From Linderina pennispora (Eukaryota; Kickxellomycota; Kickxellomycetes; Kickxellales; Kickxellaceae): a stretch of 64,000 nucleotides of DNA. Both the position numbers and the translations under genes were made by a program. Below, one piece after another: positions 377 to 50,053 of the stretch (its first letter is position 1; the number at the start of each line of letters is the position of its first letter). The notes beneath the pieces were generated by a model that did no database searches, was not told the DNA's origin, and saw nothing but the letters and a program-made list of their open reading frames with translations. The stretch is from the NCBI RefSeq assembly GCF_002104995.1, contig NW_024468252.1:124001-188000 (forward strand), written 5' to 3'.

Positions 377-377
377 A

Positions 378-21693: not shown

Positions 21694-22089
21694 GGAGGCC
21701 ATTCACAATCACTAAACTAAGTAAAAAATAATTAGAAGTTGTAAAACTTTTTGTTCTTTTGTTTTTTTTGAACTTCTCCGAAACCCCCTTTGGCATCCTG
21801 AAAAATTTCAGTTGATTTCTTGTGACCCAGCCTGTATCTCAGTAGAAGCATATTAATTGTGTATCAACTGAAATTTTTCAGGATGCCGAAGGGGGTTTCG
21901 GAGAAGTGTCTATTCTTATATTTTTGTTTATTAGTTAATCTAGTTGCTAAAATCTTTTTGGCCATCACTAAACATTCTGATTTTTAAAATATTTTTCAAC
22001 TGCTAGTAATTGATTTGTTATTTAATACTTGGTTATTCTGATACAAGATATTAAGTTTCTTTAAACTTTCTTATTTGTGAATGGCCTCC
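21694..22089 (+). repeat. Family-1 module, a type
   Basis: 396 bp, GGAGGCCATTCACAATC to TTGTGAATGGCCTCC, with better-matched terminal inverted repeats (15 bp) than the b type. The inner inverted arms carry one mismatch (CCTTTGGCATC against GATGCCGAAGG). The last 9 bases are the first three codons of the large gene. Confidence 0.85.
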
Positions 22090-23724
22090 TTAAGAGTACA
22101 TCTTAACTCCCTTTTGGGACTTGAGTTGAAGAATAGAGATAATATGCCTGATATATCTGATGCAAGATATACTAGTAATGGCATCGAACAGCAAGGATTT
22201 GTTCAGCAATCTGATATCTTTATGGATTCATGTGTTGTTGAGATTCCTGACTCATATACTCTAATGGATCAACTTCACAATATTACTCCTTTTGATAGAT
22301 TGCATAGAGTATTTGGTGATGGTTATAGTTTTAAATACATAAGATGCAGCACAAGTGTGACAAATGGTAATGTCTCTGTGTATAAAGTATCTGCTCCAAA
22401 TGTTGCAATAGCTGATCCTGTACTAACTGATATCTTTCTTAGGATGCATCAAGAACATGTATTTCTTCAAAACTATGATATTACAATGGATTGTCTAAAT
22501 ATTTCTTCTAGAGCTATTGTTAAGGAATTTCTTCTTGATAATGGAATCAGTAGCAAAGATATTCTTGATGATGAAAATAAAGTTGGAGCAAACTGTATTA
22601 GCTGGTTTACTGAAGAAGATGAGATAAGAATAAGGAACAAGTTGTATAATAAATTTGTTCAACTCTTAGAAAGTGGTGAAGTTTGCAATCAACTTACTTC
22701 TAAGCTATCAGAGCTAGTGATGCCAACTTCTCAGCAATTTGGTGAAACACTTGTTGCTTGTAGGAATGAAGGATTAATGAGGCTTGAGCTTACTGTTCAC
22801 TCTCCTGAGTTGAAAGAAGTAGAATGGAACACAAACTTAATTGTCAATACTCTTGAGTTTCTTCATAACTGCAGGACATTTGCAACATCTTATGAAAAGC
22901 AATGGATGGCACTAGTTGATCAGATTCATAACAAACATACATTGTGTATTTACTTCCATAAAGAACATTCTCTTGGTTACTGCCATTGGTTCAATAAAAC
23001 AACTAAGAAGAAACAAGGAATAGCTAAAAAGTTGAAAAAGAATGAGGATATGATGACTGTTGTTTCTAATCTTACATTCAATGGACACCCAACTGTTCTT
23101 CTTACATATGCTACTAGTAGTGGTCCTCTTGAATCTGAAGTTGTTCTAAGAAGAGATAGTACAAACATCACTATTGTTCCTAGTCAGAGAAACTCCTTCT
23201 GGCCAGTTGCTTCAAGAGAAAGACAACAATATACATTTGCTAAAATGGGACTTATTAACTATTGTGGAATACATATTGATTGGTTAACAGCTCAGCAAGC
23301 AAGAGAGAAAGTTAGGCTTTCAACTCTCTCAATTGTTAGTGATAATACTGATGGTTTAGGAATAGATGACCTTCTTGCAGATATTAGCAATATTGAACTT
23401 GATGATCTAGAACCTACATATTTAAGAGAAAATACTGATCTCAAGCCAGCTAGATATAAAGTTGCTTACAACATACTTCATGTTGGTGATGAGTTCTTAG
23501 TTAGTTATTACTTCCTATATACTTTTAGAGGATTACCTTTCTACTATCTAGATATTTCTATGATTCACAATGAAATAGTTAGTAGCACTCATATACTTAT
23601 CAAAGTACTGGCAAGTAGTCCATTTGGTGAATGTATTGCTTCTGTTATTGGCCAACCAAATCAAGAAGTGGTGCTTAAAGTAACTAGAATTCATAATCGT
23701 AGTATCCATACTGAGAGGATCTAG
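22081..23724 (+). CDS. Family-1 large protein, 547 aa, intact
   Basis: Unassigned. The start ATGGCCTCC is the module terminus itself. Conserved blocks shared with the family-2 homologue (30146-31780): NMPDISDARYT (21-31), VSVYKVSAPNVAIA (98-111), NYDITMDC (131-138), NCISWFT (171-177), KLYNKFVQLLESGEV (187-201), RLELTVHS (234-241), FATSYEKQWMALVD (267-280), YCHWFN (300-305), then a more variable C-terminus. The series D-x-T-x-D, then Y-N-K, then R-x-E is faintly like palm-type replication initiators (Rep_trans and phage gene II families). There is no H-x-H motif. That similarity is my inference and is weak. The gene is convergent with the 79-aa gene. Confidence 0.85.
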   Translation: MASLRVHLNSLLGLELKNRDNMPDISDARYTSNGIEQQGFVQQSDIFMDSCVVEIPDSYTLMDQLHNITPFDRLHRVFGDGYSFKYIRCSTSVTNGNVSVYKVSAPNVAIADPVLTDIFLRMHQEHVFLQNYDITMDCLNISSRAIVKEFLLDNGISSKDILDDENKVGANCISWFTEEDEIRIRNKLYNKFVQLLESGEVCNQLTSKLSELVMPTSQQFGETLVACRNEGLMRLELTVHSPELKEVEWNTNLIVNTLEFLHNCRTFATSYEKQWMALVDQIHNKHTLCIYFHKEHSLGYCHWFNKTTKKKQGIAKKLKKNEDMMTVVSNLTFNGHPTVLLTYATSSGPLESEVVLRRDSTNITIVPSQRNSFWPVASRERQQYTFAKMGLINYCGIHIDWLTAQQAREKVRLSTLSIVSDNTDGLGIDDLLADISNIELDDLEPTYLRENTDLKPARYKVAYNILHVGDEFLVSYYFLYTFRGLPFYYLDISMIHNEIVSSTHILIKVLASSPFGECIASVIGQPNQEVVLKVTRIHNRSIHTERI

Positions 23725-23726
23725 TT

Positions 23727-23813
23727 TTAAAATGGGCAGTTGGCAACCATTACTTCCATATCTGCACAACTGTAGTTGCATACATCAAACACATGCTTAA
23801 TACTAACACCCCT
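23727..23813 (-). pseudogene. 79-aa gene of copy 2, C-terminal piece
   Basis: The gene is split. The C-terminus is here, the middle at 27953-28094 and the N-terminus at 32697-32711. The breaks are the insertion points of two family-2 elements. Confidence 0.8.
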
Positions 23814-25899: not shown

Positions 25900-25907
25900 T
25901 AACCATT

Positions 25908-26147: not shown

Positions 26148-26198
26148 TTTCTAAAATTGATAAAAGTTGAAATTTTTATTTATGACTACCTCACACAG

Positions 26199-27430: not shown

Positions 27431-27492
27431 GCAACTTTTAAAATAGGAATTTTTTACAAACTTTACTCAATGATAGAAACATGCTTCAATAA

Positions 27493-28094: not shown

Positions 28095-28555
28095 GGGGGT
28101 CATTCCTGGACTTGTAAATTTTAGTTATTTGCAATTTTGTTAGATAGATATTTGAATAATCGTTTTCAGAACTATTTTTTGCTACTAATTATTTTTTCTA
28201 TAGTTATTATTTGTTATTGTGTCCAGAATGTTTTTGTGTGTATAATTGATTTTAAAAATACAAATATTTTTTTTGCCATTTCACCCAAACCGCCATCGGC
28301 ATCTTGGAAAAGTTTCAGTGAACATAATTTCAACCAGAAAGAAAAACTTTGCATATTTGGGGTTAATTATCATTGGGCAACAAAAGTCAATATCTCAATA
28401 GATGTGGCTAAGCAACCACAAGGAAATTATGTTCACTGAAACTTTTCCAAGATGCCGATGGCGGTTTGGGTGAAATTTTTATTTCACTGAAATTGCTAAT
28501 AGTTCCAGCATGCATAAATAGTTAATGGGCAGATAAGTGTCTCTGTATAACCCCC
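28095..28555 (-). repeat. Family-2 module, left end of copy 2
   Basis: 461 bp, GGGGGTCATTCC to TATAACCCCC. The spacer is inverted relative to its flanks when compared with 36179-36639. Confidence 0.85.
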
Positions 28556-28616
28556 TTATTGAAGATATTTCTATCATTAAGTAAAGTTTGTAAAAAATTC
28601 CTATTTTAAAAGTTGC

Positions 28617-29846
28617 TTATGACATGTCTACATAGAAGTTCATTGACTCATCAATTTTAGCTTGAATCAGTCTATCTTGTAGTTCTCTCATTGAAGCTTC
28701 TAGTTCTACTTTTTGTGGTAAAGTACTTCCAACTTCAGCATGAGTTGATCTCTCCTGGTTGTTGCTTGGGTAGTCAAAGTTAGATAGAACCCAAAGTGTG
28801 TGGTGATGTTCAATAGGAACTTTACTAGCTGCTAGGATCTTCTTCATATTGTAGAGTAAGCAACAGAGTTTAAACTGCACATTGTACACAGTTGTGTTTC
28901 TAATTCTTACAACTTCTCTATTTGATAGTCTCTTAAATGTGTTACCTAGTTCTCCAAATGTGCTCTCAACCATTGATCTAAATGACCCAAGTTTGCTATT
29001 ATATTCTAACTCTGCCTCACTTAAGTTGGTTCCTCTTGGCTTTCTAACTGGTAAGCAAAAGTTATGCATTCCAAAATTCTCATTCTCTTCTGCTTCTGTT
29101 AACTCCTCCAGAATACTTTGAGGATAACCACCATCTAAAACAACACAATCTACTGGAGAGATGTATTTCAATAGTGACATGTTCTTAATCATCTTAGAAT
29201 CTGGGTGGTCTTTACACTCCTCAGTTGGTGAAACAAGGACAACCATTCCATTCAAATCAATGCAAACTTGTGTTCTATATCCTGACTTCTTCAACTTGAA
29301 GGAATAAAGATTTGGTTTGTATGCACCATTATGTAGTGCTCGTGAGTCATGTCCATCTAACATAAGAGTAATATGCTTAAACCCTTGTGGATTCTGAATC
29401 TTTGCTGAGATCACTCTTAGTTCTGGAGTAGAGAACATTGTGTGTAAGTAGTGTGAAAGCTTCTTGTTCAACTCACTTAACTCTGAGAGATAGAACATAT
29501 TATGAATTACCTGATAGCTGCTCTTAGGAATAAACCTCTCCATCTCATTGATTGATAGCCCAGCAACTAACTGGTATAAAATCAAGAGTCCTTTCTCAAC
29601 ATTTCTGTAAGGACATGGATACTGCTTTCCACCAAATAGAACATTTAGGAAGAAGAACACAGGGATCATTCCAAGTTGCTTCACAAGTGTATCTTTGATG
29701 AGCTTTATTTCTTTCACTTCATGAGCTTCACTCCTATAGTACTTCTGTTGTTTATGTACTAACCAATCTTCATCAAGAAATCTCCACTTTGTTGTGTAGA
29801 GCACATTCCACTCCTTCTCTCTTAATTCTTGTAATTGATTGTCCAT
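28617..29846 (-). CDS. Family-2 DDE transposase, intact (409 aa)
   Basis: PIF/Harbinger-like (DDE_Tnp_4-type) transposase. A likely helix-turn-helix region at about residues 90-120 (LSINEMERFIPKSSYQVIHN) precedes the catalytic domain: D in LMLDGHDSRALHNGAYKP, D in VVLDGGYPQS, E in MVESTFGELGNTFKRL, with the DHPDS block typical of this superfamily in between. The start MDNQ is set by alignment with family 1, although the frame is open 14 codons further up. It is divergent from the 79-aa gene with 51 bp between. It would cut at the module ends and leave 3-bp duplications. Confidence 0.9.
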   Translation of the reverse strand: MDNQLQELREKEWNVLYTTKWRFLDEDWLVHKQQKYYRSEAHEVKEIKLIKDTLVKQLGMIPVFFFLNVLFGGKQYPCPYRNVEKGLLILYQLVAGLSINEMERFIPKSSYQVIHNMFYLSELSELNKKLSHYLHTMFSTPELRVISAKIQNPQGFKHITLMLDGHDSRALHNGAYKPNLYSFKLKKSGYRTQVCIDLNGMVVLVSPTEECKDHPDSKMIKNMSLLKYISPVDCVVLDGGYPQSILEELTEAEENENFGMHNFCLPVRKPRGTNLSEAELEYNSKLGSFRSMVESTFGELGNTFKRLSNREVVRIRNTTVYNVQFKLCCLLYNMKKILAASKVPIEHHHTLWVLSNFDYPSNNQERSTHAEVGSTLPQKVELEASMRELQDRLIQAKIDESMNFYVDMS

Positions 29847-29897
29847 CTGTGTGAGGTAGTCATAAATAAAAATTTCAACTTTTATCAATTTTAGAAA

Positions 29898-30137
29898 ATG
29901 GGATCATTCCAAAACTTCTTCAAGCAACACTTAGCTGAGATGTGTGAGGAAGAAAGAGATATGCTTACTCTGCTACTTATTCATGACTTTGATATGAGTG
30001 ATGACTTAGCAATACAAGTGCGTAATTGGATCCAACATATTGCTACTGATTGTGAGGTAAGGGTTGAACATGTGTATGATGTTTGTCAAACTTTCCATAG
30101 AGATATGGAGAGAATGGTTGCATATACTATGTTTTAA
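29898..30137 (+). CDS. Family-2 79-aa accessory protein
   Basis: Identical to the protein at 25908-26147. Position and length are conserved in both families. The intergenic region with the transposase (51 bp) must hold both promoters or a shared bidirectional one. Function unknown. In PIF/Harbinger elements a second protein with a Myb-like fold helps transposition, but I see no Myb signature here. Confidence 0.82.
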   Translation: MGSFQNFFKQHLAEMCEEERDMLTLLLIHDFDMSDDLAIQVRNWIQHIATDCEVRVEHVYDVCQTFHRDMERMVAYTMF

Positions 30138-30145
30138 AATGGCTG

Positions 30146-31780
30146 CTACTCAACTGTGATTGTTCTATATCCCACACTTACAGCTCTTAGATATATTTGT
30201 TGCTTTGATTCTCCTAACTGTTGAGAAATTGCTTTTCCAATAGAACTGTCAGCTGGTGTCCTAATAAGAGTTGGCTGTTTATCTCTCCCTTTAATATGAA
30301 TATCAACATAGAAGTATGAATGTCCTCTGAAAGTATGGAGTGCATAATGTGTAACTATAAATTCATCATCTAACTGAAGAACATTGTAAGCAACTCTATA
30401 CAGTGATGGTTTCAGATCTGTATTCTCTTTGATAAATATATGTCTAGTTTCATCAAGTGTGATATTGTCTATTGCTGTTGTTAATGCATTGATGTTTTCC
30501 TCTTTTGCAGAATAATCAACCTCTGATATTTCTGATAAACATATCTTACTCTTTGCTTGCTTACTATCTATCCAACCAATATGCATTCCTTTGTAGTTAA
30601 CTAATCCCATCTCTTCAAAAGTGTGATACTGCTTAGTTGTAGGATAAGTTGACCAGAAGGAGTTTCTCTGACTTGGAACAATAGTTATATTCTCATCAAC
30701 TCTTCTAAGAACTTTTTCTGTTTCAAGACCACTCTCAAGTGAATCATATATTTGATAAAGTGTAGGTCTATTGTTGAATGAGAGATTAGCAACAACTACC
30801 ATTGGATCATCATTCTTGTTTAGCTTCTTAATAATTCCTTGCTTCTTTGATGTGATAGAGTTAAACCAATGACAATATGCTAGAGTATGCTGTTGTCTCA
30901 CATAAATACAAACAGTATAACAACTACTAACTTTATCAACAAGTGCCATCCACTGCTTTTCATAAGAAGTTGCAAATGTTCTGCATTTATTCATAAACTG
31001 AACTGTGTTAAGAAGCAAGCTGCTATTCCATTCAAATGTTTGCATCTGAGAAGAATGTACAGTTAGTTCTATCCTAGTCAAACCAGAGTTTCTACAAGCA
31101 TACAATGTTTCTCCAAAGTTGTGCAAAGTTGGCATTATAAATTCAGAAAGTTTTGAACTAAGAGGATTACGAACTTCACCACTCTCAAGAAGCTGAATAA
31201 ACTTGTTGTAAATTTTGTTCTTAACTTTAACATCTCCTTTCTTTGTAAACCAGCTAATGCAGTTAGAGCCAGACTTGCGTAAATCATCTACAACATCTTT
31301 CTTTTCAACTCCTCTTTCTAAAAGGTATTTATAGATAATATTTCTAGATGAGATATTCATACAATCCATTGTGATGTCATAATTTTGTAGATATATTTTG
31401 TAATCAGCCATAGCAGCAAACTTCACTGTTAACAAAGAACTAGCTATTGCAATATTTGGGGTAGATACTTTGTAAATAGCAACTGGACCATATTTTTCAC
31501 TAATCTTACTTCTAACATACTTATAACCAAAACCTTCTCCAAATACTTTATGCAATCTAACACTAGCTGACTTCTGCTTCACCTTTATATCTGATTCACT
31601 GCATTTCTCAACAACAACCTCAACAATGAATGAGTCAACAAATATTTCAGAAGAATGCTCAAATCCAAGTTGCTCTATACCTCTAGCAGTATACCTAGCA
31701 TCAGCGACATCAGGCATATTTCTTCTTTCTGATAACACTCTTGATAGTAATGCTCTTAGTTCACTCTGGAAGGGGGTCAT
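30146..31780 (-). CDS. Family-2 large protein, intact (544 aa)
   Basis: Starts MTPFQSELRALL. The ATG and the next two codons (ATG ACC CCC) are the module end GGAATGACCCCC, exactly as in family 1. Conserved blocks: NMPDVADARYT, YDITMDC, NCISWFTKKGDVKVKNKIYNKF (upstream of ESGEV), RIELTVHS, FATSYEKQWMALVD, YCHWFN. No helicase or nuclease motif recognised, no signal peptide or membrane segment. It is convergent with the 79-aa gene (8 bp between stops). Whether it is a replication-initiator-like protein or a new DNA-binding partner of the transposase cannot be settled from sequence alone. Confidence 0.85.
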   Translation of the reverse strand: MTPFQSELRALLSRVLSERRNMPDVADARYTARGIEQLGFEHSSEIFVDSFIVEVVVEKCSESDIKVKQKSASVRLHKVFGEGFGYKYVRSKISEKYGPVAIYKVSTPNIAIASSLLTVKFAAMADYKIYLQNYDITMDCMNISSRNIIYKYLLERGVEKKDVVDDLRKSGSNCISWFTKKGDVKVKNKIYNKFIQLLESGEVRNPLSSKLSEFIMPTLHNFGETLYACRNSGLTRIELTVHSSQMQTFEWNSSLLLNTVQFMNKCRTFATSYEKQWMALVDKVSSCYTVCIYVRQQHTLAYCHWFNSITSKKQGIIKKLNKNDDPMVVVANLSFNNRPTLYQIYDSLESGLETEKVLRRVDENITIVPSQRNSFWSTYPTTKQYHTFEEMGLVNYKGMHIGWIDSKQAKSKICLSEISEVDYSAKEENINALTTAIDNITLDETRHIFIKENTDLKPSLYRVAYNVLQLDDEFIVTHYALHTFRGHSYFYVDIHIKGRDKQPTLIRTPADSSIGKAISQQLGESKQQIYLRAVSVGYRTITVE

Positions 31781-32696
31781 TCCTGGACTTGTAAATTTTA
31801 GTTATTTGCAATTTTGTTAGATAGATATTTGAATAATCGTTTTCAGAACTATTTTTTGCTACTAATTATTTTTTCTATAGTTATTATTTGTTATTGTGTC
31901 CAGAATGTTTTTGTGTGTATAATTGATTTTAAAAATACAAATATTTTTTTTGCCATTTCACCCAAACCGCCATCGGCATCTTGGAAAAGTTTCAGTGAAC
32001 ATAATTTCAACCAGAAAGAAAAACTTTGCATATTTGGGGTTAATTATCATTGGGCAACAAAAGTCAATATCTCAATAGATGTGGCTAAGCAACCACAAGG
32101 AAATTATGTTCAGGGGGTTATACAGAGACACTTATCTGCCCATTAACTATTTATGCATGCTGGAACTATTAGCAATTTCAGTGAAATAAAAATTTCACCC
32201 AAACCGCCATCGGCATCTTGGAAAAGTTTCAGTGAACATAATTTCAACCAGAAAGAAAAACTTTGCATATTTGGGGTTAATTATCATTGGGCAACAAAAG
32301 TCAATATCTCAATAGATGTGGCTAAGCAACCACAAGGAAATTATGTTCACTGAAACTTTTCCAAGATGCCGATGGCGGTTTGGGTGAAATGGCAAAAAAA
32401 ATATTTGTATTTTTAAAATCAATTATACACACAAAAACATTCTGGACACAATAACAAATAATAACTATAGAAAAAATAATTAGTAGCAAAAAATAGTTCT
32501 GAAAACGATTATTCAAATATCTATCTAACAAAATTGCAAATAACTAAAATTTACAAGTCCAGGAATGACCCCCTCACTGAAACTTTTCCAAGATGCCGAT
32601 GGCGGTTTGGGTGAAATTTTTATTTCACTGAAATTGCTAATAGTTCCAGCATGCATAAATAGTTAATGGGCAGATAAGTGTCTCTGTATAACCCCC
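31772..32696 (-). repeat. Family-2 module, right end of copy 2, split by a MITE
   Basis: 461-bp module as 31772-32112 plus 32577-32696. It is interrupted inside the right inner arm (ATTATGTTCA) by the MITE at 32113. Confidence 0.85.
32113..32573 (+). mobile_element. Family-2 MITE nested in a family-2 module
   Basis: A 461-bp stand-alone module with a TCA target duplication (32110-32112 and 32574-32576). Spacer in the plus orientation, opposite to that of the host module relative to its own flanks. Confidence 0.88.
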
Positions 32697-32711
32697 ATAG
32701 AATGGGCCCAT
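32697..32711 (-). pseudogene. 79-aa gene of family-1 copy 2, N-terminal piece
   Basis: First five codons (MGPFY), cut off by the ATA insertion site. Confidence 0.65.
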
Positions 32712-36940: not shown

Positions 36941-37247
36941 TTATAGAATTAGATTTATTCAAAAGCTGCCATTTTAAAACATCATGTTCAAGTCATCAAG
37001 TCGTTATCATCCTATTTATAACTATTTATCTAATACTAAGCAATCATATAACTCATCAATTTTAGAAAGTATCAAACTATACCATTTTAAAAAATCATAA
37101 TAAATTCATCAAGTTGTTAGAATCCCATCTGTAATTAATAGATATGCACCAAGCAATCATATGTGTCATCAATTTTAGAAAGAATCAAGCTGTGCTATTT
37201 TAAAACATCAAATTCAAGTCATCAAGTCATTAGTACTCCATCTGTAA
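36941..37247 (-). repeat. Transposase 3'-tail tandem repeats, copy 3
   Basis: Three roughly 110-bp units resembling the end of the transposase gene. Nearly identical to 1288-1594 and 42199-42505. Confidence 0.65.
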
Positions 37248-38477
37248 TTAATCAATATGCACCAAGCAATCATATGTATCATCAATTTTAGATTGAAGGA
37301 ATCGATTTTGAATTTCAACAATAGATGCTTCTAACTCTGCTTTTTGGGGCAAAGTATGTATTGGTTCCACTTGTGTTGACTTATCATGTGTATCAGGGTA
37401 ATCAAAGTTGCTCATAACCCAGAGTGAGTGATGATGATCAATATGTACATCACTATTTGCTAGTAACTTCTTCATATTATAGAGTAAGCAGCATAACTTC
37501 ATTTGCACATTGTAAACATTCCTATTCTTTACTCTAACAATCTCCCTGTTTGACAGCCTTTTGAATGTATTGCCTAGTTCTCCAAATGTATTTTCTACCA
37601 TTGAACGGAATGATCCAAGATGGGAATTATATTCAGCTTCTGTTTCTGATAAGCTTGTTCCTCTCTGCTTTCTTACTGGTAAACAAAAGTTGTGCAGTCC
37701 AAAAGTATCCTGCTCTTCTTCCTCAGTCATCTCTTCCAAAATACTTTGTGGATAACCACCATCAAGCACAATGCAATCAATAGGTGATATATTCTTCAGC
37801 AACCCCATGTTCTTAATCATTCTTGAGTCTGGGTGATCTCTACAGTCTTCAGTTGGTGAAACAAGTAGAACCATTCCATTCACATCAATGCATAGTTGTG
37901 TGCGATATCCTGATTTTTTCAATTTGAATGAATAGAGATCTGGTTTGTATGCTCCATTGTGTAGTGCTCTTGAGTCATGGCCATCTAACATTAGTGTTAC
38001 ATGTTTAAACCCTTGAGGATTCTGTATCTTTGCTGCAAAGACTCGTAGTTCTGGAGTTGAAAACATTGTTTGCAGATAGTATGTTAGCTTCTTGTTCAAA
38101 TCTTTCATTTCAGAAATATAGAACATATTATGAATAGCTTGATAGCTACTCCTAGGAATGAATCTTTCCATTTCATTGATAGACAATCCTTCTACAAGTT
38201 GGTATATGATGAGCAGTCCTTTCTCTACACTTCTATAAGGACATGGATAATGAGTGCAACCAAACAAAACATTCAGAAAGAAGAAAACAGGAATCATCCC
38301 TAGATGTTTAAGAAGTGTATCCTTTATTAGTTTAATTTCTCTTACTTCACGAACTTCACTTCTGTGATATTTTGTATGTTTTAGAATTACCCAGTCATCA
38401 TTCAGAAACTTCCATTTGTTTGTGTACAATTTGTGATATTCCTTTTCTCTGAGTTCTTGTAATTGATGATTCATCAT
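37248..38477 (-). CDS. Family-1 DDE transposase, intact (409 aa)
   Basis: Catalytic residues D165 (TLMLDGHDSR), D239 (IVLDGGYPQS) and E295 (SMVENTFGEL), with a probable helix-turn-helix near 97-120 (GLSINEMERFIPRSSYQAIH). The fold belongs with the PIF/Harbinger (DDE_Tnp_4) group. It starts MMNHQ or MNHQ; the second Met aligns with the family-2 start. The large gene of this copy is interrupted, so the transposase could act only in trans with another copy's proteins if those are needed. Confidence 0.9.
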   Translation of the reverse strand: MMNHQLQELREKEYHKLYTNKWKFLNDDWVILKHTKYHRSEVREVREIKLIKDTLLKHLGMIPVFFFLNVLFGCTHYPCPYRSVEKGLLIIYQLVEGLSINEMERFIPRSSYQAIHNMFYISEMKDLNKKLTYYLQTMFSTPELRVFAAKIQNPQGFKHVTLMLDGHDSRALHNGAYKPDLYSFKLKKSGYRTQLCIDVNGMVLLVSPTEDCRDHPDSRMIKNMGLLKNISPIDCIVLDGGYPQSILEEMTEEEEQDTFGLHNFCLPVRKQRGTSLSETEAEYNSHLGSFRSMVENTFGELGNTFKRLSNREIVRVKNRNVYNVQMKLCCLLYNMKKLLANSDVHIDHHHSLWVMSNFDYPDTHDKSTQVEPIHTLPQKAELEASIVEIQNRFLQSKIDDTYDCLVHID

Positions 38478-38517
38478 TGTGAGGCACTCATAAATTTAAA
38501 AGTTGTCATTTATTGCA

Positions 38518-38757
38518 ATGGGCCCATTCTACAAATTCTTCAACACTCGACTTGCTGAGCTAGATGAGGAAGAGAGAGAAAAGCTAGTCCAACTACTTAG
38601 CAAAAATTTCAATATGAGCAGAAAATTAACAGTATATATCAGAGCTTGGATCAGGAATGTTTCAGAAGATAGGGGTGTTACTATTAAGCATGTGTTTGAT
38701 GTGTGCAACTACAGTTGTGCAGATATGGAAGTAATGGTTGCCAACTGCCCATTTTAA
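38518..38757 (+). CDS. Family-1 79-aa accessory protein
   Basis: MGPFYKFFNTRLAELDEEER start. A longer frame begins 5 codons up, but the 79-aa start matches family 2. Charged N-terminal half, then an AWIRN block and a cysteine pair (DVCNYSC). It is convergent with the large gene, with 2 bases between the two stop codons. Function unknown. Confidence 0.82.
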   Translation: MGPFYKFFNTRLAELDEEEREKLVQLLSKNFNMSRKLTVYIRAWIRNVSEDRGVTIKHVFDVCNYSCADMEVMVANCPF

Positions 38758-40148
38758 AACTAGATCCTCTCAGTATGGATGATACGATTATGAATTCTAG
38801 TTACTTTAAGTACCACTTCTTGATTTGGTTGGCCAATAACAGAGGCAATATATTCTCCAAATGGACTACTTGCTTGTATTTTGATATGAGTGTGAGTACT
38901 GCTAACTACTTCATTGTGAATCATATAGATATCTAGATAGTAGAATGGCAACCCTCTAAAAGTATATAAGAAATAATGATGAATTAGGAACTCATCTCCA
39001 GCATGAAGTATATTATAAGCAACTTTATATCTAGCTGGCCTAAGATCAGTATTTTCTCTTATGTATGTGGGTTCTAGATCATCAAGTTCAATGTTGCTAA
39101 TATCAGCAATAAGATCATCTACACCTAGGTCATCAGTATCCTCACTAACACTTGAGAGAGTTGAGAGACAAACTTTCTCTCTTGCTTGTTGAGCAGTTAG
39201 CCAATCAATATGCATTCCACGATAGTTAACAAGTCCCATTTCAGCAAATGTGTGTTGTTGCCTTTCTCTTGAAGCAACAGGCCAGAAGGAATTTCTCTGA
39301 CTAGGAACAATAGTGATGTTTGTGATATCTCTTCTCAGAACAACTTCAGATTCAAGAGGACCACTACTAGTAGCATATGTAAGAAGAAGAGTTGGGTGTC
39401 CATTAAATGTAAGATTGGAAACAACAGTCATCACATCCTCATTCTTTGTCAACTTTTTAGCTATTCCTTGTTTCTTCTTAGTTGTCTGATTGAACCAATG
39501 GCAGTAACCAAGAGCATGTTCTTTATGGAAGTAGATGCACAACATATGTTTGTTATGAATCTGATCAACTAGTGCCATCCATTGCTTCTCATAAGATGTT
39601 GCAAATGTCCTACAGCTACTAAGAAACTCCAGTGTACTAGCAATTAAGTTTGTGTTCCATTCTACTTCTTTCAACTCAGGAGAGTGAACAGTAAGCTCAA
39701 GTCTCATTAATCCTTCATTCCTACAAGCAACAAGTGTTTCACCAAATTGCTGAGAAGTTGGCATCACTAGCTCTGATAGCTTAGAAGTAAGTTGATTGCG
39801 AACCTCACCACTTTCTAGAAGTTGAACAAATTTATTATACAACTTGTTCCTAATTCTTATTTCATCTTCATCAGTAAACCAGCTAATACAGTTTGCTCCA
39901 ACTTTATCTTCATCATCAAGAATATCATTGCTACTGATTCCATTATCAAGAAGAAATTCCTTAATCACAGCCCTAGAAGATATGTTTAGACAATCCATTG
40001 TAATATCATAGTTCAGAAGAAATACATGTTCCTGATGCATCCTAAGAAAGATATCAGTTAGTGCAGGATCAGCTATTGCAACATTTGGAGCAGATAGTTT
40101 GTAAACAGAGACTTTACCATTTCTCACACTTACCATGCACTTTATATA

Positions 40149-40609
40149 GGAGGTCATTCAGAGATAGTTATCTGCACAACAATTATTTGTGCATATTGAA
40201 ACTATTGGCAATTTCAGTGAAATAAAAATTTCACCCAAACCGCCATCGGCATCTTGGAAAAGTTTCAGTGAACATAATTTCAACCAGAAAGAAAAACTTT
40301 GCATATTTGGGGTTAATTATCATTGGGCAACAAAAGTCAATATCTCAATAGATGTGGCTAAGCAACCACAAGGAAATTATGTTCACTGAAACTTTTCCAA
40401 GATGCCGATGGCGGTTTGGGTGAAATGGCAAAAAAAATATTTGTATTTTTAAAATCAATTATACACACAAAAACATTCTGGACACAATAACAAATAATAA
40501 CTATAGAAAAAATAATTAGTAGCAAAAAATAGTTCTGAAAACGATTATTCAAATATCTATCTAACAAAATTGCAAATAACTAAAATTTACAAGTCCAGGA
40601 ATGACCCCC
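40149..40609 (+). repeat. Family-2 module with GGAGGTCATTCAG end, left
   Basis: 461 bp. Spacer in the plus orientation. Confidence 0.85.
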
Positions 40610-41030
40610 AAGAGGAACCAACTTAAGTGAAGCAGAGTTAGAATATAATAGCAAACTTGGGTCATTTAGATCAATGGTTGAGAGCACATTTGGAGAACTA
40701 GGTAACACATTTAAGAGACTATCAAATAGGGAAGTTGTGAGAATTAGAAACACAACTGTGTACAATGTGCAGTTTAAACTCTGTTGCTTACTCTACAATA
40801 TGAAGAAGATCCTAGCAGCTAGTAAAGTTCCTGTTGAACATCACCACACACTTTGGGTTCTATCTAACTTTGACTACCCAAGCAACAATCAGGAGAGATC
40901 AACACATGCTGAAGTTGGAAGTAGTTTACCACAAAAAGTAGAGTTAGAGGCTTCAATGAGAGAACTACAAGATAGACTGATTCAAGCTAAAATTGATGAG
41001 TCAATGAACTTCTATGTTGACATGTCATAA
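40610..41030 (+). pseudogene. Family-2 transposase C-terminal fragment
   Basis: About 139 codons from RGTNLSEAELEYNS through MVESTFGEL (catalytic E) to the stop. Both catalytic aspartates are deleted. Confidence 0.85.
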
Positions 41031-41091
41031 ACATCTTTTAAAATAAGAATTTTCAGTAAGAATTTTGCATTGATAGAAAATGCTTCAATAA

Positions 41092-41552
41092 GGAGGTCAT
41101 TCAGAGATAGTTATCTGCACAACAATTATTTGTGCATATTGAAACTATTGGCAATTTCAGTGAAATAAAAATTTCACCCAAACCGCCATCGGCATCTTGG
41201 AAAAGTTTCAGTGAACATAATTTCAACCAGAAAGAAAAACTTTGCATATTTGGGGTTAATTATCATTGGGCAACAAAAGTCAATATCTCAATAGATGTGG
41301 CTAAGCAACCACAAGGAAATTATGTTCACTGAAACTTTTCCAAGATGCCGATGGCGGTTTGGGTGAAATGGCAAAAAAAATATTTGTATTTTTAAAATCA
41401 ATTATACACACAAAAACATTCTGGACACAATAACAAATAATAACTATAGAAAAAATAATTAGTAGCAAAAAATAGTTCTGAAAACGATTATTCAAATATC
41501 TATCTAACAAAATTGCAAATAACTAAAATTTACAAGTCCAGGAATGACCCCC
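41092..41552 (+). repeat. Family-2 module with GGAGGTCATTCAG end, right
   Basis: 461 bp, direct repeat of 40149-40609, with the same spacer orientation. Confidence 0.85.
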
Positions 41553-41801
41553 ATACTTAAATCTGTATCCATCACCAAAAACTCTATGCAATCTATCAAA
41601 AGGAGTAATATTGTGAAGTTGATCCATTAGAGTATATGAGTCAGGAATCTCAACAACACATGAATCCATAAAGATATCAGATTGCTGAACAAATCCTTGC
41701 TGTTCAATGCCATTACTAGTATATCTTGCATCAGATATATCAGGCATATTATCTCTATTCTTCAACTCAAGTCCCAAAAGGGAGTTAAGATGTACTCTTA
41801 A

Positions 41802-42198
41802 GGAGGCCATTCATAAATATAAAAGTTTAAAGAAACTAAATACCTATTATTAGAATAACTAATTAACAAATAATAAATCAATTACTAGCAGTAGATAAAT
41901 ATTTTAAAATACAGAATGTTTACCACTGGCCAAAAAGATTTAAGCAACTAGATTAACAAATAAACAAAGATGCCAAATATGGTGCTTCTACGAAACCCCC
42001 TTCAGCATCCTGAAAAATTTCAGTTGATTTCTCGGGACGCAGCCTGTATCTCAGTAGAAGCATATTAATTGTGTATCAACTGAAATTTTTCAGGATGCCG
42101 AAGGGGGTTTCGTAGAAGCACCATATTTGGCATCAGAACAAGAAAACAATAAAAATATTAATAATTATTAAATAGCTAACCATTTCTGACTGATCTCC
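41802..42198 (+). repeat. Family-1 module (b type) shared by copies 3 and 4
   Basis: 397 bp. It serves both as the large-gene-side end of copy 3 and the transposase-side end of copy 4. One inner arm has a G-to-A change (TTCAGCATCC). Confidence 0.85.
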
Positions 42199-42505
42199 TT
42201 ATAGAATTAGATTTATTCAAAAGCTGCCATTTTAAAACATCATGTTCAAGTCATCAAGTCGTTATCATCCTATTTATAACTATTTATCTAATACCAAGCA
42301 ATCATATAACTCATCAATTTTAGAAAGTATCAAACTATACCATTTTAAAAAATCATAATAAATTCATCAAGTTGTTAGAATCCCATCTGTAATTAATAGA
42401 TATGCACCAAGCAATCATATGTGTCATCAATTTTAGAAAGAATCAAGCTGTGCTATTTTAAAACATCAAATTCAAGTCATCAAGTCATTAGTACTCCATC
42501 TGTAA
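42199..42505 (-). repeat. Transposase 3'-tail tandem repeats, copy 4
   Basis: As 36941-37247. Confidence 0.65.
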
Positions 42506-43735
42506 TTAATCAATATGCACCAAGCAATCATATGTATCATCAATTTTAGATTGAAGGAATCGATTTTGAATTTCAACAATAGATGCTTCTAACTCTGCTT
42601 TTTGGGGCAAAGTATGTATTGGTTCCACTTGTGTTGACTTATCATGTGTATCAGGGTAATCAAAGTTGCTCATAACCCAGAATGAGTGATGATGATCAAT
42701 ATGTACATCACTGTTTGCTAGTATCTTCTTCATATTATAGAGTAAGCAGCATAACTTCATTTGCACATTGTAAACATTCCTATTCTTTACTCTAACAATC
42801 TCCCTGTTTGACAGCCTTTTGAATGTATTGCCTAGTTCTCCAAATGTATTTTCTACCATTGAATGGAATGATCCAAGATGGGAATTATATTCAGCTTCTG
42901 TTTCTGATAAGCTTGTTCCTCTCTGCTTTCTTACTGGTAAACAAAAGTTGTGCAGTCCAAAAGTATCCTGCTCTTCTTCCTCAGTCATCTCTTCCAAAAT
43001 ACTTTGTGGATAACCACCATCAAGCACAATACAATCAATAGGTGATATATTCTTCAGCAACCCCATGTTCTTAATCATTCTTGAGTCTGGGTGATCTCTA
43101 CAGTCTTCAGTTGGTGAAACAAGTAGAACCATTCCATTCACATCAATGCATAGTTGTGTGCGATATCCTGATTTTTTCAATTTGAATAAATAGAGATCTG
43201 GTTTGTATGCTCCATTGTGTAGTGCTCTTGAGTCATGGCCATCTAACATTAGTGTAACATGTTTAAACCCTTGAGGATTCTGTATCTTTGCTGCAAAGAC
43301 TCGTAGTTCTGGAGTTGAAAACATTGTTTGCAGATAGTATGTTAGCTTCTTATTCAAATCTTTCATTTCAGAAATATAGAACATATTGTGAATAGCTTGA
43401 TAGCTACTCCTAGGAATGAATCTTTCCATTTCATTGATAGATAACCCTTCTATAAGTTGGTATATGATGAGCAGTCCTTTCTCTACACTTCTGTAAGGAC
43501 ATGGATAATGAGTGCAACCAAACAAAACATTCAGAAAGAAGAAAACAGGAATCATCCCTAGATGTTTAAGAAGTGTGTCCTTGATAAGTTTAATTTCTCT
43601 TACTTCACGAACTTCACTTCTGTGATATTTTGTATGTTTTAGAATTACCCAGTCATCATTCAGAAACTTCCATTTGTTTGTGTACAGTTTGTGATACTCC
43701 TTTTCTCTGAGTTCTTGTAATTGATGATTCATCAT
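42506..43735 (-). CDS. Family-1 DDE transposase, intact (409 aa)
   Basis: Differs from 37248-38477 by only a few residues. The same catalytic triad D165, D239, E295 is present. It is divergent from the 79-aa gene across 40 bp. Confidence 0.9.
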   Translation of the reverse strand: MMNHQLQELREKEYHKLYTNKWKFLNDDWVILKHTKYHRSEVREVREIKLIKDTLLKHLGMIPVFFFLNVLFGCTHYPCPYRSVEKGLLIIYQLIEGLSINEMERFIPRSSYQAIHNMFYISEMKDLNKKLTYYLQTMFSTPELRVFAAKIQNPQGFKHVTLMLDGHDSRALHNGAYKPDLYLFKLKKSGYRTQLCIDVNGMVLLVSPTEDCRDHPDSRMIKNMGLLKNISPIDCIVLDGGYPQSILEEMTEEEEQDTFGLHNFCLPVRKQRGTSLSETEAEYNSHLGSFHSMVENTFGELGNTFKRLSNREIVRVKNRNVYNVQMKLCCLLYNMKKILANSDVHIDHHHSFWVMSNFDYPDTHDKSTQVEPIHTLPQKAELEASIVEIQNRFLQSKIDDTYDCLVHID

Positions 43736-43775
43736 TGTGAGGCACTCATAAATTTAAAAGTTGTCATTTATTGCA

Positions 43776-44015
43776 ATGGGCCCATTCTACAAATTCTTCA
43801 ACACTCGACTTGCTGAGCTAGATGAGGAAGAGAGAGAAAAGCTAGTCCAACTACTTAGCAAAAATTTCAATATGAGCAGAAAATTAACAGTATATATCAG
43901 AGCTTGGATCAGGAATGTTTCAGAAGATAGGGGTGTTAGTATTAAGCATGTGTTTGATGTATGCAACTACAGTTGTGCAGATATGGAGGTAATGGTTGCT
44001 AACTGCCCATTTTAA
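43776..44015 (+). CDS. Family-1 79-aa accessory protein
   Basis: 79 codons, one residue different from 38518-38757 (VSIKH against VTIKH). The stop codon is 2 bases from that of the large gene, so the two transcripts must overlap at their 3' ends. Confidence 0.82.
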   Translation: MGPFYKFFNTRLAELDEEEREKLVQLLSKNFNMSRKLTVYIRAWIRNVSEDRGVSIKHVFDVCNYSCADMEVMVANCPF

Positions 44016-44017
44016 AA

Positions 44018-45661
44018 CTAGATCCTCTCAGTATGGATAATACGATTATGAATTCTAGTTACTTTAAGTACCACTTCTTGACTTGGTTCACCAATAATAG
44101 AAGCAATATATTCTCCAAATGGACTACTTGCTTGTATTTTGATATGAGTGTGAGTACTGCTAACTACTTCATTGTGAATCATATAGATATCTAGATAATA
44201 GAATAGCAACCCTCTAAAAGTATATAAGAAATAATGACTAACTAGGAACTCATCTCCAACATGAAGTATGTTATAAGCAACTTTATATCTAGCTGGCCTA
44301 AGATCAGTATTTTCTCTTATATATGTGGGTTCTAGATCATCAAGTTCAATGTTGCTAATATCAGCAATAAGATTATCTATTCCTAGGTCATCGGTATCCT
44401 CACTAACACTTGAGAGAGTTGAGAGACAAACTTTCTCTCTTGCTTGCTGAGCTGTTAACCAATCAATATGCATTCCACGATAGTTAACAAGTCCCATTTC
44501 AGCAAATGTGTGTTGTTGCCTTTCTCTTGAAACAACAGGCCAGAAAGAATTTTTCTGACTAGGAACAATAGTGATGTTTGTGATATCTCTTCTCAGAACA
44601 ACTTCAGATTCAAGAGGACCACTACTGGTAGCATATGTAAGAAGAAGAGTTGGGTGCCCATTAAAAGAGAGGTTAGAAACAACAGTCATCATATCTTCAT
44701 TCTCTTTCAACTTTTTAGCTATTCCTTGTTTCTTCTTAGTTGTCCTATTGAACCAATGGCAATAAGCAAGAGCATGTTCTTTATGAAAGTAAATACACAA
44801 TGTATGTTTGTTATGAATCTGATCAACTAGTGCCATCCATTGCTTTTCATAAGATGTTGCAAATGTCCTACAATCACTAAGAAACTCTAGTGTACTAGCA
44901 ATTAAGTTTGTGTTCCATTCTACTTCTTTCAACTCAGGAGAGTGAACAGTAAGCTCAAGCCTCATTAATCCTTCATTCCTACAAGCAACAAGTGTTTCAC
45001 CAAATTGCTGAGAAGTTGGCATCACTAGCTCTGATAGCTTAGAAGTAAGTTGATTGCGAACCTCACCACTTTCTAGAAGTTGAACAAATTTATTGTACAA
45101 CTTGTTCCTAATTCTTATTTCATCTTCATCAGTAAACCAGCTAATACAGTTTGCTCCAACTTTATCTTCATCATCAAGAATATCATTGCTACTGATTCCA
45201 TTATCAAGAAGAAATTCCTTAATCACAGCCCTAGAAGATATGTTTAGACAATCCATTGTAATATCATAGTTCAGAAGAAATACATATTCCTGATGCATCC
45301 TAAGAAAGATATCAGTTAGTGCAGGATCAGCTATTGCAACATTTGGAGCAGATACTTTGTAAACAGAGACTTTACCATTTCTCACACTTACCATGCACTT
45401 CATATACTTAAATCTGTATCCATCACCAAAAACTCTATGCAATCTATCAAAAGGAGTAATATTGTTAATCTGATCTATAAGAGCATATGATTCAGGTATC
45501 TCAACAACACATGAATCCATAAAGATATCAGAATGCTGAATAAATCCTTGCTATTCAATGCCATTACTAGTATATCTTGCATCAGATATATCAGGCATAT
45601 TATCTCTATTCTTCAACTCAAGTCCCAAAAGGGAGTTAAGATGTACTCTTAAGGAGGCCAT
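44018..45661 (-). pseudogene. Family-1 large gene with a single nonsense change
   Basis: Complete except for Gln37 to TAG (45551-45553). All conserved blocks are present downstream. The ATG is in the module end at 45659-45661. A downstream Met (MDSC, residue 48) opens a 500-codon frame. Confidence 0.85.
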
Positions 45662-46048
45662 TCATAAATATAAAAGTTTAAAGAAACTAAATATCTATTA
45701 TCAGAATAACCAATTAACAAATAATAAATCAATTACTAGCAGTAGATAAATATTTTAAAATACAGAATGTTTAGCAATGGCCAAAAAGATTCTAGCAACT
45801 AGATTAACAAACAAACAAAGATGCCAAATATGGTGCTTCTACAAAACCCCCTTCGGCATCCTGAAAAATTTCAGTTGATACACAATTAATATGCTTCTAC
45901 TGAGATAGAGGCTGCGTCCCGAGAAATCAACTGAAATTTTTCAGGATGCCGAAGGGGGTTTGTAGAAGCACCATATTTGGCATCAGAACAAGAAAACAAT
46001 AAAAATATTAATAATTATTAAATAGCTAACCATTTCTGACTGATCTCC
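45653..46048 (+). repeat. Family-1 module (b type), right end of copy 4, spacer flipped
   Basis: 396 bp, same flanks as 41802-42198, but the spacer reads ACACAATTAATATGC first, i.e. inverted. Direct evidence for spacer inversion within otherwise matching modules. Confidence 0.88.
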
Positions 46049-47555: not shown

Positions 47556-47557
47556 AA

Positions 47558-49665
47558 CTAGATCCTCTCAGTATGGATAATACGATTATGAATTCTAGTT
47601 ACTTTAAGCACCACTTCTTGATTTGGTTGGCCAATAACAGAAGCAATACATTCACCAAATGGACTACTTACCAGTACTTTGATAAGTGTATGAGTGCTGC
47701 TAACTATTTCATTGTGAATCATAGAAATATCTAGATAGTAGAAAGGTAATCCTCTAAAAGTATATAGGAAGTAATAACTAACTAAGAACTCATCACCAAC
47801 ATGAAGTATGTTGTAAGCAACTTTATATCTAGCTGGCTTGAGATCAGTATTTTCTCTTAAATATGTAGGTTCTAGATCATCAAGTTCAATATTGCTAATA
47901 TCTGCAAGAAGGTCATCTATTCCTAAACCATCAGTATTATCACTAACAATTGAGAGAGTTGAAAGCCTAACTTTCTCTCTTGCTTGCTGAGCTGTTAACC
48001 AATCAATGGGGGTCATTCCTGGACTTGTAAATTTTAGTTATTTGCAATTTTGTTAGATAGATATTTGAATAATCGTTTTCAGAACTATTTTTTGCTACTA
48101 ATTATTTTTTCTATAGTTATTATTTGTTATTGTGTCCAGAATGTTTTTGTGTGTATAATTGATTTTAAAAATACAAATATTTTTTTTGCCATTTCACCCA
48201 AACCGCCATCGGCATCTTGGAAAAGTTTCAGTGAACATAATTTCAACCAGAAAGAAAAACTTTGCATATTTGGGGTTAATTATCATTGGGCAACAAAAGT
48301 CAATATCTCAATAGATGTGGCTAAGCAACCACAAGGAAATTATGTTCACTGAAACTTTTCCAAGATGCCGATGGCGGTTTGGGTGAAATTTTTATTTCAC
48401 TGAAATTGCTAATAGTTCCAGCATGCATAAATAGTTAATGGGCAGATAAGTGTCTCTGTATAACCCCCAATATGTATTCCACGATAGTTAATAAGTCCCA
48501 TTTCAGCAAATGTATGTTGTTGTCTTTCTCTTGAAGCAACTGGCCAGAAGGAGTTTCTCTGACTAGGAACAATAGTGATGTTTGTGATATCTCTTCTCAG
48601 AACAACTTCAGATTCAAGAGGACCACTACTAGTAGCATATGTAAGAAGAACAGTTGGGTGTCCATTGAATGTAAGATTAGAAACAACAGTCATCATATCC
48701 TCATTCTTTTTCAACTTTTTAGCTATTCCTTGTTTCTTCTTAGTTGTTTTATTGAACCAATGGCAGTAACCAAGAGAATGTTCTTTATGGAAGTAAATAC
48801 ACAACATATGTTTGTTATGAATCTGATCAACTAGTGCCATCCATTGCTTTTCATAAGATGTTGCAAATGTCCTGCAGTTATGAAGAAACTCAAGAGTATT
48901 GACAATTAAGTTTGTGTTCCATTCTACTTCCTTCAACTCAGGAGAGTGAACAGTAAGCTCAAGTCTCATTAATCCTTCATTCCTACACGCAACAAGTGTT
49001 TCACCAAACTGTTGAGAAGTTGGCATCACTAGCTCTGATAGCTTAGAAGTAATTTGATTACGAACTTCACCACTTTCTAAGAGTTGAACAAATTTATTAT
49101 ACAACTTGTTCCTTATTCTTATCTCATCTTCATCAGTAAACCAGCTAATACAGTTTGCTCCAACTTTATTTTCATCATCAAGAATATCTTTGCTACTGAT
49201 TCCATTATCAAGAAGAAATTCCTTAACAATAGCTCTAGAAGAAATATATAGACAATCCATTGTAATATCATAGTTTTGAAGAAATACATGTTCTTGATGC
49301 ATCCTAAGAAAGATATCAGTTAGTGCAGGATCAGCTATTGCAACATTTGGAGCAGATACTTTATACACAGAGACGTTACCATTTGTCACACTTGTGCTGC
49401 ATCTTATATATTTAAAACTATAACCATCACCAAATACTCTATGCAATCTATCAAAAGGAGTAATATTGTGAAGTTGATCCATTAGAGTATATGAGTCAGG
49501 AATCTCAACAACACATGAATCCATAAAGATGTCAGATTGCTGAACAAATCCTTGCTGTTCAATGCCATTACTAGTATATCTTGCATCAGATATATCAGGC
49601 ATATTATCTCTATTCTTCAACTCAAGTCCCAAAAGGGAGTTAAGATGTACTCTTAAGGAGGCCAT
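47558..49665 (-). pseudogene. Family-1 large gene interrupted by a MITE, copy 5
   Basis: C-terminal part 47558-48007, N-terminal part 48472-49665. The parts are joined in frame apart from the MITE. Close to the intact copy at 22081-23724. The start codon is in the module end. Confidence 0.85.
48008..48468 (-). mobile_element. Family-2 MITE in the large gene
   Basis: 461 bp, target duplication AAT (48005-48007 and 48469-48471). Spacer inverted relative to its flanks when compared with 36179-36639. Confidence 0.9.
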
Positions 49666-50053
49666 TCATAAATATAAAAGTTTAAAGAAACTAAATATCT
49701 ATTATCAGAATAACCAATTAACAAATAATAAATCAATTACTAGCAGTAGATAAATATTTTAAAATACAGAATGTTTACCACTGGCCAAAAAGATTCAAGC
49801 AACTAGATTAACAAATAAACAAAGATGCCAAATATGGTGCTTCTACGAAACCCCCTTCGGCATCCTGAAAAATTTCAGTTGATTTCTCGGGATGCAGCCT
49901 GTATCTCAGTAGAAGCATATTAATTGTGTATCAACTGAAATTTTTCAGGATGCCGAAGGGGGTTTCGTAGAAGCACCATATTTGGCATCAGAACAAGAAA
50001 ACAATAAAAATACTAATAATTATTAAATAGCTAACCATTTCTGACTGATCTCC
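49657..50053 (+). repeat. Family-1 module (b type), right end of copy 5
   Basis: 397 bp, spacer in the plus orientation, overlapping the first codons of the large gene. Confidence 0.85.

Follow-up and report, generated by a model that had tools for sequence, protein, structure and literature searches.

In a 64,000-nt window of the fungus Linderina pennispora (Kickxellomycota; contig NW_024468252.1; by the window we mean this whole stretch of DNA) and at 20 mapped loci, we characterized a PF13359 (PIF/Harbinger-type) DNA transposon with the layout R-body-R, that is, a body with three genes between two terminal repeats (R) set in direct orientation. R alone or R-body-R is inserted with a 3-bp target-site duplication (TSD), and each R contains a hairpin whose inner segment occurs in both orientations. 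The element, present as two diverged families, is a new variant of PIF/Harbinger-type transposon that resembles long terminal repeat (LTR) elements and has a flipping hairpin in its ends. An earlier note on this DNA had read it as a three-gene Harbinger-type transposon; the gene set stands, and the main unusual trait, the R-body-R layout with direct repeats, had been overlooked. It is the direct repeats, the solo and tandem forms and the flipping hairpin, more than the gene set, that make the element unusual.

In every complete element mapped, R lies in direct orientation at each end. The R of family 2 (R2) measures 459-462 nt, typically ~461, and that of family 1 (R1) 396-399 nt, typically ~397. 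R2 begins GGGGGTTAT (variant GGAGGTCAT) and finishes ATGACCCCC, R1 begins GGAGGCCAT and finishes CTGATCTCC, and R itself is bounded by short inverted ends, GGRGGYYAT... and ...ACCCCC or ...TCTCC. In both families the first three codons of the large gene belong to R, at its edge (family 2, ATG ACC CCC; family 1, ATG GCC TCC, read on the opposite strand), and since R supplies these start codons in both families, R and body form one unit. The possibility that R is an unrelated miniature inverted-repeat transposable element (MITE) landed beside the elements was ruled out, because in complete copies both sides of the body carry R in like orientation and the large gene has its first codons within R. 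A composite transposon of the bacterial type was rejected as well, R (~397-461 nt) being without a transposase, which lies in the body. The elements and repeats of the window are the following:

28095..32696, minus strand: family 2 element copy B, R-body-R, with ATA on both sides (28092-28094 and 32697-32699) and a solo R2 nested in its left R
28095..28555, minus strand: right terminal repeat R2 of copy B, 461 nt
31772..32696, minus strand: left R2 of copy B, split by the solo R2 at 32113-32573; inner end ATGACCCCC, with the first large-gene codons
23814..27952, plus strand: copy A, a family 2 element lying within a family 1 body; 100% identity between its two R over the 261 outer columns compared
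891..5144, plus strand: family 1 element R1-body-R1; TSD CAT/CAT, empty site found; 0 of 3 genes intact
36080..46048, plus strand: family 1 tandem R1-body-R1-body-R1 with shared middle R1 and nested insertions at 36179-36639 and 40149-41552
41802..42198, plus strand: middle R1 of the tandem, shared by both units; 397 nt, with its inner segment in orientation B
45653..46048, plus strand: R1, 396 nt, inner segment in orientation A
40149..41552, plus strand: internally deleted family 2 unit, R2-484 nt-R2; TSD ATA, empty site found
36179..36639, plus strand: solo R2, the reference copy of R2; TSD AAT, empty site
32113..32573, plus strand: solo R2 that interrupts the left repeat of copy B; TSD TCA, with an empty site
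48008..48468, minus strand: solo R2 lying within the large gene of a family 1 copy; TSD ATT, with an empty site
54053..54513, minus strand: solo R2; TSD AGT
54767..55227, minus strand: solo R2; TSD ATT
63194..63655, minus strand: solo R2; TSD TAA, empty site found (91% identity)

By means of arm matches covering at least 80% of the arm length, we collected 64 R units (42 R2 and 22 R1), which flank words with up to 2 mismatches classed as 23 solo, 17 left, 22 right and 2 between two bodies; this set keeps one weak R1 call that overlaps another unit (L019 7077-7475) and counts as solo one R of the deleted unit, that at window 40149. Genome-wide there were 178 candidate places for R2 and 170 for R1, of which 40 of each were scored. 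Among 13 additional small loci R was present in 9; L073 and L074 held none, L077 and L078 were palindromic and L072 was unpaired.

An exact 3-bp duplication borders 15 of the 23 solo R (re-pairing gave a mean of 2.1, with 0 of 10,000 re-pairings as high) and 12 of 15 elements, made up of 7 of 10, 4 of 4 whose flanks were paired by eye, and copy B. The duplicated triplets vary between insertions. Searching the joined flanks among the fetched copies recovered ungapped empty sites for 14 of 19 chosen insertions (9/10 solo R, 1/1 deleted unit, 4/8 elements), 13 of them with exactly 3 bp, at identities of 91-100%. Copy A shows no exact triplet, and taking out 2 bp restores its empty site, as though R had lost one base; across the whole tandem at 36080-46048 there is no 3-bp duplication (ATT versus ATA).

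The two R of one element are more alike than R of different elements. With the inner segment turned to one orientation, R2 identity averaged 0.989 within an element (8 pairs) versus 0.946 left-left, 0.944 right-right and 0.946 left-right between elements, and 2 of 40,320 re-pairings, the true pairing included, reach the observed mean. The corresponding values for R1 were 0.987 (4 pairs) versus 0.975, 0.980 and 0.976, where 1 of 24 re-pairings, namely the true one, reaches the mean. Both tests drew on 12 of the 13 first pairs (the deleted unit being left out), with one R2 pair and one R1 pair in tandem, and did not include four later same-element pairs, which are 0.996-1.000 identical. This likeness follows the pattern of LTRs and not that of two independently inherited composite ends, weakly so for R1.

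Each R contains a long inverted repeat, with a perfect 54-bp stem and a 91-nt loop in R2 and a stem of ~60 bp (exact runs of 26 and 36) and a 46-nt loop in R1:

36258..36456, no strand assigned: invertible hairpin segment of R2, 54-bp perfect stem, 91-nt loop
45820..45984, no strand assigned: invertible hairpin segment of R1, stem ~60 bp, 46-nt loop

The fold energies of the hairpins have z-scores of -12.3 and -15.8 against 100 shuffles, and their arms share TCGGCATCyTGrAAAA between the families. Comparing R of the two families part by part, the stem matches best (local score 46, with arm b at 40, arm a at 28 and the loop at no more than 20, the parts differing in length). The enclosed segment was found in orientation A in 19 R2 and 10 R1 and in orientation B in 23 R2 and 12 R1; on quick trees of the outer arms its orientation changes at least 9 times in R2 and at least 6 times in R1. 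Opposite orientations occur in 6 of 17 same-element pairs (5 of 13 and 1 of 4), with an inner identity, once turned, of 0.96-1.00 in five and a whole-R identity of 1.00 in the sixth, and both orientations occur among five R2 whose outer arms are identical. Taken together, the near-even orientations, the repeated changes on the trees, the opposite pairs and the identical-arm R2 indicate that the flipping is recent and recurrent, and a ratio near 50:50 in two diverged families shows inversion at the palindrome to be frequent. Two R1 units, L077 (G000:C140:68250-68800) and L078 (G000:C112:888740-889290), have a single kind of outer arm, present on either side of the hairpin, and form near-palindromes of ~500 nt, with a 3-bp duplication in 0 of 2 (by eye); they could be products of hairpin resolution.

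The gene content of the body agrees with the earlier note, which had proposed two diverged but homologous families sharing gene lengths, order and orientation, the transposase being divergent from a 79-aa gene that is convergent with a large gene. The open reading frames (ORFs) bear this out: those of family 1 at 22081-23724, 37248-38757 and 42506-45661 are all present, and the family 2 set at 28617-31780 encodes a transposase of 409 aa, a small protein of 79 aa and a large protein of 544 aa.

28617..29846, minus strand: family 2 transposase, PF13359, 409 aa from an inner ATG of a 423-aa ORF (the ORF opens at 29888)
29898..30137, plus strand: family 2 79-aa protein, no convincing family match
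30146..31780, minus strand: large protein of family 2 (544 aa), without convincing family match and with the Rep_trans-like residues D49, D135xxxD139, K189-x-Y191-x-K193-xx-Q196 and R236-x-E238
37248..38477, minus strand: family 1 transposase, 409 aa, first unit of the tandem; the small gene of that unit ends at 38757
42506..43735, minus strand: family 1 transposase, 409 aa, second unit of the tandem, seen as an ORF
43761..44015, plus strand: family 1 small gene, seen as an 84-aa ORF, 79 aa from an inner ATG
44018..45661, minus strand: family 1 large gene with one in-frame stop, codon 37, seen in the sequence
21773..23813, minus strand: family 1 sub-family copy with part of a terminal repeat (21773-21993) and the large gene (22081-23724, 547 aa), cut by copy A

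Two of the sets needed qualification. The one at 42506-45661 has the gene content and order ascribed to it and is not a full coding set, because its large gene has the in-frame stop at codon 37; the one at 22081-23724 does belong to family 1, as a sub-family ~91% identical to the family 1 reference copy. Copy A (23814-27952), a second family 2 copy, and the family 1 element at 891-5144 were absent from the earlier note. In copy A the transposase is split over two ORFs, the large gene has one C fewer at codon 3, and the R pair has an identity of 0.989 when gaps count. A family 1 sub-family contains, between the transposase side and the terminal repeat, a recurring piece of ~970 nt that is ~76% identical to family 2 (window 34388-36079; L013 5527-6497; L025 3342-4313; L026 3417-4391; L027 3354-4325), of which the window copy holds an additional 79-aa small gene at 35673-35912.

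The transposases of both families match PF13359 (DDE_Tnp_4) above the curated cut-off, with E values of 1.1e-13 and 1.6e-13, and their similarity to IS5-type transposases lies far below the cut-off; together with the 3-bp target duplication this upholds the assignment to the PIF/Harbinger type. In an alignment of 122 transposases, comprising the two window proteins and 120 of the 176 relatives found at E 1e-5 or better, D178, D252 and E308 (423-aa numbering) are near-invariant and likely form the catalytic triad of the family 2 transposase. The 120 relatives listed include proteins of Entomortierella, Linnemannia, Lobosporangium, Apophysomyces, Rhizomucor and Coemansia, many of them with a chromodomain. 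Among six relatives scanned, four have it at the C-terminus (P0021 and P0026 from Lobosporangium, P0064 and P0135), an arrangement familiar from chromoviral integrases, and neither of the two L. pennispora transposases scanned against Pfam has one. At least 83 PF13359 matches are present in the 26.2-Mb assembly of 222 contigs.

The other two proteins gave no convincing match in Pfam or PHROGs, the matches listed being weak and differing between members, and the large protein, which alone was scanned against it, gave none in NCBIfam. A Myb-like partner was not found in Pfam at E up to 10 (17 aligned large proteins; one 79-aa protein per family), in agreement with the earlier claim that neither partner has a Myb signature. 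Both genes nevertheless look constrained, as does the transposase gene: the within-family ratio of nonsynonymous to synonymous polymorphism (pN/pS) was 0.30 in family 2 and 0.23 in family 1 for the large gene (10 pairs each), 0.34 (78 pairs) and 0.27 (55 pairs) for the small gene, and 0.10 (36 pairs) and 0.09 (21 pairs) for the transposase. These ratios, 0.085-0.344 over the six genes, were pooled over distinct intact copies only and are somewhat lowered because intact copies were chosen. Between families, synonymous (dS) and nonsynonymous (dN) divergence reached 1.20 and 0.41 for the large gene, 1.22 and 0.48 for the small gene and 1.69 and 0.16 for the transposase, values whose ratios are rough because synonymous sites are near saturation. 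The element thus has, as the earlier note had it, two extra conserved proteins with no convincing family, and selection on both is visible as pN/pS well below 1. Our guess is that the 79-aa protein is a DNA-binding helper.

The large protein is rare. We found 16 relatives in 5.8 billion proteins, and a profile search gave the identical 16. L. pennispora contributes three of them and Actinomortierella ambigua one; the other 12, which are probably metagenomic, lie on contigs of 2.1-5.8 kb. No viral relatives were recovered by an alignment scan of IMG/VR (20 stretches matched the pattern, 0 confirmed) and no prokaryotic ones in GTDB genome contigs (72 stretches, 0 confirmed). A tblastn search with the large protein P0008 at E up to 10 returned two phage records and one plasmid, which we rejected as kin, the best (E 0.9) being antisense to an annotated gene. 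P0008 and the transposase relative P0064 both lie on contigs of 3,700, which may be coincidence.

Among 17 aligned large proteins 51 columns are invariant. In all 17 we found D49, D135xxxD139, K189-x-Y191-x-K193-xx-Q196 and R236-x-E238, a set in which [RK]xYxKxx[EQ] and the acidic residues match the catalytic pattern of the Rep_trans nickases in order and inner spacing. As described in passages of Carr (2016; PMC4797284), the Rep_trans active site consists of R189, the nucleophile Y191, K193 and E196 (Q184 in RepSTK1), with a metal ion on three acidic residues; passages of PMC6499999 assign the acidic metal ligands to motifs N', I and IV and, for a MOBT relaxase, list D72, D177, Y252, K254, E257 and E280. 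In 12 aligned phage and plasmid Rep proteins (PF02486 confirmed in 2, the others taken by tblastn similarity) the invariant residues were R145-x-D147xxxD151, Y208-x-K210 and R223-x-E225. The large protein thus resembles Rep_trans/MOBT (PF02486) in having an acidic residue, DxxxD, basic-x-Tyr-x-Lys-xx-Glu/Gln and RxE in the same order, with a palindrome as putative target, and differs in the gap from Tyr to RxE, 47 residues versus ~17, and in the absence of a significant sequence or profile match. A relation to the Rep_trans family is possible, and the large protein may be a rolling-circle nickase. According to passages of PMC13107129, Rep_trans is confined to bacteria, apart from a related archaeal-virus family reported there, and our literature search for eukaryotic or fungal Rep_trans returned, in the texts it reached, nothing beyond a review on secretion systems.

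The closest known architecture is that of KolobokP, which passages of Kojima and Bao (2022; PMC9587614) describe as unlike other DNA transposons for its long terminal direct repeats. As described there, KolobokP also has an internal DDD/E transposase gene between long direct terminal repeats (~450 or 660 bp), and its repeats have short inverted ends of their own and occur as solo repeats and as (repeat-body)n-repeat multimers; its TSDs are 3-5 bp, those of the Linderina element 3 bp. In contrast, the same passages report for KolobokP a Kolobok transposase, a His-Me homing nuclease and animal hosts, whereas the Linderina element has a PF13359 transposase, a fungal host, 545-aa and 79-aa proteins without convincing family and a flipping hairpin in each repeat. 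With PIF/Harbinger it shares the PF13359 transposase, the short inverted outer ends and the 3-bp target duplication, but not the long direct terminal repeats, and a Myb-like partner is missing from it in the Pfam search given above. Its variable duplicated triplets also differ from the target preference usual in Harbinger elements. Like LTR retrotransposons it has direct terminal repeats that are alike within a copy, solo repeats and a gene whose first codons lie at the repeat edge; unlike them it has a flipping hairpin and outer ends GG...CC, and no reverse transcriptase was detected in its three proteins (Pfam). In parvovirus flip/flop a terminal palindrome occurs in two orientations. The Linderina palindrome does so too, but its repeats are direct and inside a transposon. 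In the literature searched, with most subscription journals and preprints outside its scope, we recognized no other DDE DNA transposon with LTR-like ends besides KolobokP; the phrase 'terminal direct repeat' is used in a paper on Cryptons (PMC3212892).

While the architecture is directly observed, its mechanism has to be deduced, and the best explanation that we can offer, with a probability of about 0.42, is rolling-circle copying from the R hairpin by the large protein, followed by DDE insertion. The large protein, as a putative Rep_trans-type tyrosine nickase, would open the R hairpin, and the nick would start rolling-circle copying of a proposed circle of R and body or of a repeat array, with the hairpin segment flipped in about every second re-joining at the palindrome. 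The DDE transposase would then cut the multimer at the left end of any R and at the right end of any R and insert the enclosed stretch, with a 3-bp duplication, be it R alone, R-body-R or R-body-R-body-R. In such a model all R of one insertion would descend from one circle R, because they would be copied from an R-body circle, and the solo, single and tandem forms, the likeness within elements and the flipping would be accounted for. The wider proposition, that this is a eukaryotic element which joins a rolling-circle replicon (Rep_trans-type nickase, flipping hairpin origin in an LTR-like repeat) with a cut-and-paste DDE transposon inserting monomers, multimers or the repeat alone, we put forward as a rather doubtful one.

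Several results weigh against the rolling-circle reading. An exact 3-bp duplication is missing at 8 of the 23 solo R and 3 of the 15 elements, and some R pairs are less alike by their outer arms, namely those of L022 (0.924, with TSD), 41802/45653 (0.965) and L018 (0.969, without TSD). Among 51 R2, four-gamete tests failed at rates of 0.70 between arms, 0.58 in arm b and 0.42 in arm a, rates that are much alike for equal distances; among 22 R1 the rates were 0.23, 0.40 and 0.28, in that order. These tests show recombination along the whole R and lend no support to the hairpin as a hotspot; gene conversion is therefore frequent and could by itself make two R alike. As to the protein, the motif set speaks for the reading, label shuffles among the 51 invariant columns having yielded D / DxxxD / [RK]xYxKxx[EQ] / RxE in 0 of 1,000,000 (motif III alone in 91), but the pattern was chosen after the sequence was seen, and 5 of the 17 aligned proteins are L. 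pennispora copies of two families. None of the 17 matches PF02486 at E up to 10, and hmmsearch with Rep_trans profiles over 18 proteins gave no more than 0.9 and 0.3 bits, while shuffles reached up to 5.2 and 5.7. The comparison of hidden Markov models (HMMs) that the earlier note had named as a check of the large protein was run against Rep_trans with hhalign and reached no significance, with E values of 0.24 and 0.44 and, for the domain when cut out, of 0.13; scores as high as that of the match came from 25 of 300 column shuffles. The A1 alignments bring motifs I, II and III together and the A3 alignment does not.

Much of what was observed would also be expected from a cycle like that of KolobokP, in which the large protein would be a site-specific nuclease that cuts the R palindrome and not a starter of replication. 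Host repair from another R would duplicate R-body (induced unequal crossover) or drive R-body into solo R sites, the DDE transposase would move R-body-R or R by cut-and-paste, and flipping would be a by-product of repair between the inverted arms. Such a nuclease-and-repair cycle explains most of the facts that the rolling-circle model does: an identical set of forms, repeat-body-repeat, solo repeats and multimers with TSD, is described in the passages of PMC9587614 cited above, and it agrees with recombination along the whole R and with L022, whose two R differ yet whose TSD is intact. We consider it possible and somewhat improbable, given that no His-Me or other nuclease domain was found in the large protein by Pfam (17 aligned members) or NCBIfam, that its motif set is that of a tyrosine nickase and that a flipping segment is not among the features described in those passages.

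Solo R with their own ends and TSD, and the frequent recombination in R, would also suit a composite transposon shaped by host recombination, R being a MITE-like unit, R-body-R a composite and gene conversion what keeps neighbouring R alike; the hairpin would flip by ordinary recombination between the arms and the large protein would have another role, for example as a transposition partner. This seems unlikely to us: R is without transposase, unlike an insertion sequence, and holds the large-gene start codons in both families, R2 identity is 0.99 within an element versus ~0.945 for left-left and right-right comparisons between elements, and the near 50:50 orientation in two families would need frequent exchange between arms of 54-60 nt. 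That the R pair belongs to an LTR retrotransposon, or that direct repeats and flips are assembly artefacts, is barely credible, for although the layout of R is LTR-like, the proteins of the element include no reverse transcriptase, the TSDs are of 3 bp, empty sites exist at 14 of the 19 places tried, and the same layout recurs in both families on many contigs.

The surroundings of the elements in the window are rich in other mobile DNA. Two LTR retrotransposons with reverse transcriptase, RNase H and integrase domains lie at 5523-5597 plus 5644-11785 and at 56530-61563 plus 62585-62657, each near a tRNA-Lys (CTT) gene, and are possibly tRNA-targeted; their LTRs are identical over the 300 and 247 nt compared, and both therefore look young. 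ORFs of a non-LTR retrotransposon resembling long interspersed nuclear elements (LINE-like) occupy 13589-19995, with an endonuclease (PF03372, 15355-16326) and a reverse transcriptase (PF00078, 16675-18378), and similar ones were seen by eye at 20408-21682 and from 50591 onward. In 1-6000 and 22000-50000 the elements form nested AT-rich islands (31-35% GC) beside stretches of 48-57% GC, and they seem to insert into one another often.

With a second lineage, of another transposase superfamily and in a fungus, the LTR-like DNA transposon would become a recurrent design, whose purpose can now be asked about, and the flipping hairpin acts as a recorder, built into the element, of its transposition cycle. 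Were the large protein a nickase, this would directly explain how a cut-and-paste element gains copies. Should the rolling-circle/DDE reading be true, the element would hold the first Rep_trans-type initiator in a eukaryotic nuclear genome, as far as we have found, and would represent a second, independent origin of LTR-like DNA transposons.

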